The position numbers were made by a program, and so were the translations under genes. Shown here in pieces: positions 155 through 388 of a stretch of 15,306 nucleotides of DNA. The stretch spans positions 1-15,306 of the forward strand of contig JAHAYB010000102.1 of NCBI GenBank assembly GCA_018384835.1, written 5' to 3'. The notes under the pieces were generated by a model. That model worked only from the letters and a program-made list of their open reading frames with translations, was not told the origin of the DNA and did not search any database. Position 1 is the stretch's first letter, and every line of letters starts with the position of its first letter. Source of the DNA: Comamonas sp. (GTDB lineage: Bacteria; Pseudomonadota; Gammaproteobacteria; Burkholderiales; Burkholderiaceae_C).

Positions 155-388
155 TTATTGCGTATTCAATTTGTCGATGGCCGCAATCACCTGCTTGACT
201 TGGTACGCCTTGGCCTTATCGCCTGCACGTTGCAGATTGATGATTGATGCGTGGGTCACCTTGCCACGGTGTTTTGAAAATAGTGTGGCTACCGCCGGTA
301 CTTCGAGGCTCCCCAAAAAGCACTGTGCAAACCTTAACAAGGAAAAAATGCCATCAATACTGATGGCACTTGTCAAGCGGGACATCAA
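155..388 (-). pseudogene. hicA: HicA-like toxin gene with two compensating frameshifts
   Basis: The open frame (TTG 388 or ATG 385 to TAA 155, 76-77 codons) is a composite. Its last residues, LQRAGDKAKAYQVKQVIAAI, match the C-terminus of a HicA toxin subfamily as I know it. The matching central part is present in another frame: VKVCTVLFGEPRSTGGSH followed by TIFKTPWQGDPRIN, which holds the GSH catalytic-histidine motif and the family's FKTPWxGDPR block. The frame is left near the A6 run at 343-348, where one base appears lost. It is regained at an exact 7-bp tandem duplication (ATTGATG twice, 236-249). Removing one copy joins DPRIN directly to LQRAGDK. The two lesions sum to zero, so the ORF stays open but lacks the catalytic block and is presumably inactive. 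No clear Shine-Dalgarno is seen. The family assignment is from memory of conserved motifs. Confidence 0.7.
236..249. repeat. 7-bp tandem duplication inside the HicA-like gene
   Basis: ATTGATG is repeated exactly twice with no spacer. Deleting one unit restores the HicA reading frame across the site, so this looks like a slippage mutation that broke the gene. Confidence 0.8.

Follow-up and report, generated by a model that had tools for sequence, protein, structure and literature searches.

A probable decayed hicAB toxin–antitoxin module beneath a small composite reading frame in Comamonas sp.

Near one end of contig JAHAYB010000102.1 of Comamonas sp. (C122 among the contigs analyzed here; its entire length of 15,306 nt is referred to as the window), a short minus-strand open reading frame (ORF) of 76–77 amino acids raises the question of whether it is a toxin gene, a gene of another kind, or no gene at all. 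The contig belongs to a draft genome of 526 contigs, estimated to be 85.42% complete and 4.57% contaminated. In the initial annotation, the ORF was taken for a HicA-type toxin gene that is kept open by two compensating frameshifts, namely a one-base slip in an A6 run at 343–348 and an exact 7-bp duplication, and that may have been disarmed after loss of its antitoxin. The comparisons described below lead to another answer: the minus strand of window 32–376 very probably represents a decayed type II hicAB toxin–antitoxin (TA) module, hicA followed by hicB, whose toxin belongs to a HicA-like family (Table 1).

A DNA search of the same assembly identified a second locus, on contig C474 (L005), which is identical to window 120–342 at 195 of 223 columns (87%) and shows further DNA matches to window 74–119 and 329–376. 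The hicA-like gene of C474 comprises 83 uninterrupted codons from an ATG (331–582, minus strand), and is followed downstream by a hicB gene which is open up to the contig end and matches the Pfam HicB profile PF05534 (E 3e-12), with no match among the NCBIfam or PADLOC profiles. The two copies thus resemble each other in DNA sequence and in the core of their operator, but differ in the intactness of both genes and in the presence of cas genes on contig C474, which carries cas2, cas1, and a second cas2-like gene (L005:1203–2887). The genome has the appearance of a bin, and C474 may therefore be a contaminant.

Three-frame translation of window 1–440 revealed GSHTIFKTPWQGDPRIN in minus frame 0 and AKAYQVKQVIAAI in minus frame 1, and the two lie in the right order for one toxin, as had been proposed. 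With the uninterrupted C474 protein as query and the pieces searched separately, tblastn retrieved both of them (Table 1), while family residues 1–22 were without any match in the window. The Ser-His and PW-GDPR residues, invariant in 42 aligned family members, are present in the first piece. Judged by these alignments, the window remnant is homologous to the HicA-like family of C474. A functional hicA would have a start codon and an uninterrupted frame; the window copy has neither, residues 1–22 being gone and the remainder lying in two frames.

All deletion sizes (84, 144 and 76 bp) were measured against C474. The first break in hicA is a deletion of the start codon and N-terminal codons, and not one of a pair of shifts that keep a gene open. 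In C474, imperfect direct repeats of the form AAACCTT-N2-CAAG occur at both ends of the 84-bp segment; the deletion end points are therefore ambiguous, and the segment was probably lost by slippage between these short repeats. The second break coincides with the ATTGATG duplication, which is real and is single in C474; the heptamer has only two plus-strand occurrences in the whole window, both within 236–249, and a 7-bp tandem duplication appeared in two out of 200 mononucleotide shuffles of window 1–412. One extra base near 167, at the end of the window hicA, need not be regarded as damage, as the predicted end DKLNTQ is nearer to that of another relative, P0004 (DKLKTQ), than to that of C474. 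Another exact tandem duplication of 7 bp, CTTATTG at window 147–161, is located between the hicA and hicB remnants; C474 has the near-identical CTCATTGCTCATTG at that place, indicating that this duplication was inherited.

An otherwise complete hicA with only the A6 slip and the 7-bp duplication, as initially proposed, would be in keeping with the existence of both sequence features, with the frame change near the duplication and with the end of toxin homology near the A6 run. However, the A6 region aligns without gaps to the untranslated leader of the C474 gene (38/48 identical positions over 329–376, and 27/34 over 343–376) and matches the promoter/operator of the family, and no counterpart of the first 22 residues exists; we consider this explanation hardly credible. 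The supposed toxin N-terminus, MSRLTSAISIDGI, overlies promoter/operator-like DNA instead of HicA-coding DNA, and the stretch taken as the toxin start is, from its sequence, most likely the hicAB promoter/operator.

For comparison of leaders, the best 80 of 470 loci from named genomes were used as relatives, 79 of which had a leader of sufficient length. The consensus TTGACA-N4-GTATCA-N4-TGATACTAT, written from these leaders without using the window, describes a promoter of the sigma-70 type with a palindrome between and over its hexamers. Scores of at least 16/21 were obtained for 32 of 79 leaders, a count that is partly circular, but for none of 79 shuffled leaders and none of 74 control stretches. 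The window scores 16/21 at 376–348 on the minus strand (C474, 17), and everywhere else in the 15.3-kb window, both strands included, the score stays at 13/21 or below. A palindrome TCA-N4-TGA with arms of at least 5, at most 70 nt from hicA, is found in 26/79 leaders and is missing at that cut-off from the other 53, compared to 0.08 expected from shuffles and 0/74 in controls one kb upstream. It is a candidate operator for autorepression located in the hicAB promoter. The promoter assignment is weakened by a generic sigma-70 scan of window 1–1250, which returned a single plus-strand site and not 376–348, owing to the poor –10 hexamer that accompanies its perfect –35 hexamer.

In nine of the ten leaders scoring at least 18/21 (within L024–L103), hicA starts 5–7 nt past the –10-like hexamer, and the extrapolated hicA start lies 11–13 nt past the operator core in 21 of the 26 palindrome-containing leaders; C474, with its ATG about 30 nt past the core, is an exception. 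Such spacing may mean that hicA of many family members is translated from a leaderless mRNA.

In contrast to the antitoxin loss envisaged at first, hicB was not simply lost; a degraded remnant with two large deletions follows at once. It is located directly downstream of the hicA remnant, in the adjacency expected of a hicAB module, and was identified by DNA alignment to C474 hicB alone, with no profile match in Pfam, NCBIfam or PADLOC. Relative to C474, 144 bp are missing from it at position 119/120 and a further 76 bp at 73/74, and it has one extra base near 106. Window 74–119 is identical to C474 at 39 of 46 positions (E 2e-7); the weakest piece, window 46–73, agrees at 21 of 28 positions at a chosen offset. 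The two hicB deletion junctions show little or no repeat.

Judging from what is known of the family and from the anatomy of the promoter, an intact module of this type would encode a small RNA-cleaving toxin with a double-stranded RNA-binding domain (dsRBD) fold and a HicB protein of the ribbon-helix-helix (RHH) type, and HicB would neutralize the toxin and repress the shared promoter through the palindrome. In the window, hicA would have lost its start codon and N-terminus and gained the 7-bp duplication, and hicB would have lost most of its middle through the two deletions. Both genes thus appear decayed while the putative promoter/operator is still recognizable, and most likely neither a functional toxin nor a functional antitoxin is to be expected from this copy. 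If the toxin broke first, the order of events would be a harmless one.

Table 1. Features of the hicAB locus and the neighboring gene (coordinates refer to the window)
Feature	Position	Strand	Remarks
hicB antitoxin remnant	32–139	minus	35 codons and stop
hicA remnant, piece 2	155–241	minus, frame 1	to stop codon; residues 54–78; tblastn of 167–241: E 1.9e-8, 92% identity
hicA remnant, piece 1	228–341	minus, frame 0	family residues 23–60; tblastn E 1.6e-18, 87% identity
Composite ORF	155–388	minus	open; 77 amino acids from TTG, 76 from ATG; starts in promoter DNA
Exact 7-bp tandem duplication ATTGATG	236–249	–	homologous frame changes here
First deletion junction	342–343	minus	84 bp absent, which in C474 hold the start of hicA (start codon and roughly 22 codons)
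Former hicAB promoter (most likely)	348–376	minus	TTGACA (376–371), 17-nt spacer, weak –10-like TGGCAT (353–348)
Operator-like palindrome TGCCATCA-ATAC-TGATGGCA	349–368	within promoter	equivalent palindrome in C474 copy, same core
HD-domain gene (HD_3)	413–1150	minus	PF13023, E 4.4e-45; upstream of remnant, outside hicAB module

What, then, is the composite ORF? That it is open over 76–77 amino acids was correctly stated in the initial annotation, but this is unremarkable, because the same off-frame is also open in C474 (ORF 279–533) and, over 34 codons, in 31/80 relatives; the other off-frame is open in 21/80. The composite product has no Pfam match, and a homologue search returned only the product itself and one ordinary HicA-like member (E 0.36, 34% coverage); homologues using the composite frame throughout were not found. 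Most likely, the ORF is not a gene but an accidental reading across the promoter, off-frame toxin sequence and in-frame toxin sequence. It illustrates how gene calling by machine can yield a small protein that merely results from reading, by chance, through a promoter into the remains of a toxin gene.

Errors of sequencing or assembly in a metagenome-like contig might be suspected, given that the draft is fragmented and incomplete and that a dispersed repeat marks the nearby end of the contig. Nevertheless, three separate deletions, one duplication and a divergence of about 13% from C474 are not base-calling errors, and the protein collection records the 76-aa product on two contigs (of up to 2563 bp), though these possibly share reads. 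An artefact is therefore scarcely plausible. The base differences have a direction: among 322 positions compared between the window and C474, 279 agree; at 31 positions, A/T in the window stands against G/C in C474, at eight the reverse holds, and four differences are neutral. The G+C content is 48% for window 1–412, 61% for the remainder of the window, and 55% for C474 1–700. Both the base differences, compared without an outgroup, and the low G+C content of window 1–412 are consistent with AT-biased decay. Of the 14 substitutions that separate the hicA pieces from C474, 10 are synonymous by raw count; coding constraint was therefore probably still acting while much of the divergence accumulated, and the breaks would be comparatively recent.

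The preservation of the palindrome could also mean that the remnant was kept for a new job, with the operator/hairpin terminating transcription of the HD-domain gene or acting as a decoy for a related HicB. The palindrome is perfect, and its differences from C474 are symmetric; on the minus strand, an 11-pair stem is followed by a T-rich tail (T6), an arrangement that scores as an intrinsic terminator, with a calculated fold of –13.9 kcal/mol versus –8.8 kcal/mol for C474. Moreover, a genome from another genus contains the same 18-mer, flanked by A7 and T6, within a 3-kb locus that lacks both hicA and hicB. On the other hand, terminator-like matches in window 1–1250 are at chance number (2, compared to a mean of 1.8 in shuffles), the palindrome is accounted for as an inherited operator, and none of the 52 further genomes searched in the genus has the gene, in which conservation of the palindrome could be followed. 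Retention for a new function is hence improbable. More speculative by a shade is the specific proposal that the palindrome beside T6 terminates the HD-domain gene and/or titrates the HicB protein of the surviving hicAB copy, such that a dead TA module tunes a living one; if this unlikely scenario were true, the protein genes would be dead, but their switch retained for use.

Decay of a hicAB module, the reading which we favor, is also supported by the family to which the toxin belongs. The family comprises 2337 proteins; of the 120 listed, three are named toxin HicA. The hicA match is followed within 45 nt by a hicB relative in 80/80 loci (for L090, residues 4–26 only), and in 78 of these 80 the hicA match is nearly full-length and free of stop codons. 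For the modelled fold of the uninterrupted relative, HicA structures rank first, albeit weakly. The C474 hicA protein matched no family in hmmscan against Pfam and none in NCBIfam, and the HicA_toxin profile PF07927 had no match in the genome, the C474 copy included, although the same search was positive in seven of 14 control genomes. A perhaps more useful side result of this analysis is a widespread HicA-like family, with hicB downstream in all 80 loci inspected, whose C474 member is not seen by the present Pfam and NCBIfam profiles.

Within the genus, the family is present in one of 53 genomes searched, namely the genome containing the window; within the taxonomic family, 16 of 399 genomes, this one included, contain a match, several of them remote, partial or damaged. 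Such a patchy distribution fits a mobile TA module. Other apparently damaged hicA members from the same taxonomic family are L121/L126 (G175) and L119 (G382); one is in two pieces, and one has a reported internal stop.

Compared to known hicAB type II modules, the locus shares the order hicA–hicB on one strand, the PF05534 domain of HicB in the uninterrupted relative, a weakly HicA-like predicted fold, and a promoter overlapped by a palindrome; it differs in that neither gene of the window copy is intact and that its toxin family is missed by PF07927 and NCBIfam. Decay of chromosomal TA loci has been described: toxin genes of chromosomal TA homologues of pseudomonads are reported to be truncated or missing (for hicAB-1, 6 versus 41 homologues in Table 1 of PMC7280312), and decay of ccdO157 in E. 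coli is cited there. The window is another case of this process and likewise has an inactivated chromosomal toxin gene, but, unlike in those cases, its antitoxin gene is degraded too, and what has survived best is the promoter/operator. It documents a TA module losing both toxin and antitoxin via several small deletions, while the assembly also contains a relative without interruptions.

As regards the surroundings, the HD-domain gene is on the same strand as the remnant; elsewhere in the genus it has 14 further loci, and neither hicA nor hicB occurs in the flanks examined at any of them. The contig end near the remnant coincides with the dispersed repeat CTGAGCGTAGTCGAAGG (window 4–20), which has 18 sites in the genome when up to one mismatch is allowed; motifs resembling it, CTGAGCCGGTCGAA and CTGAGCCTGTCGAA, occur at 9391 and 10137, inside the minus-strand ORFs 8678–9631 and 9459–10610. 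At the opposite end of the window, a minus-strand ORF of 1062 amino acids (12093–15281), which by eye and with no search made resembles a methyl-accepting chemotaxis protein, contains four copies of the unit PLNVAATYVDRIAKGDIP.
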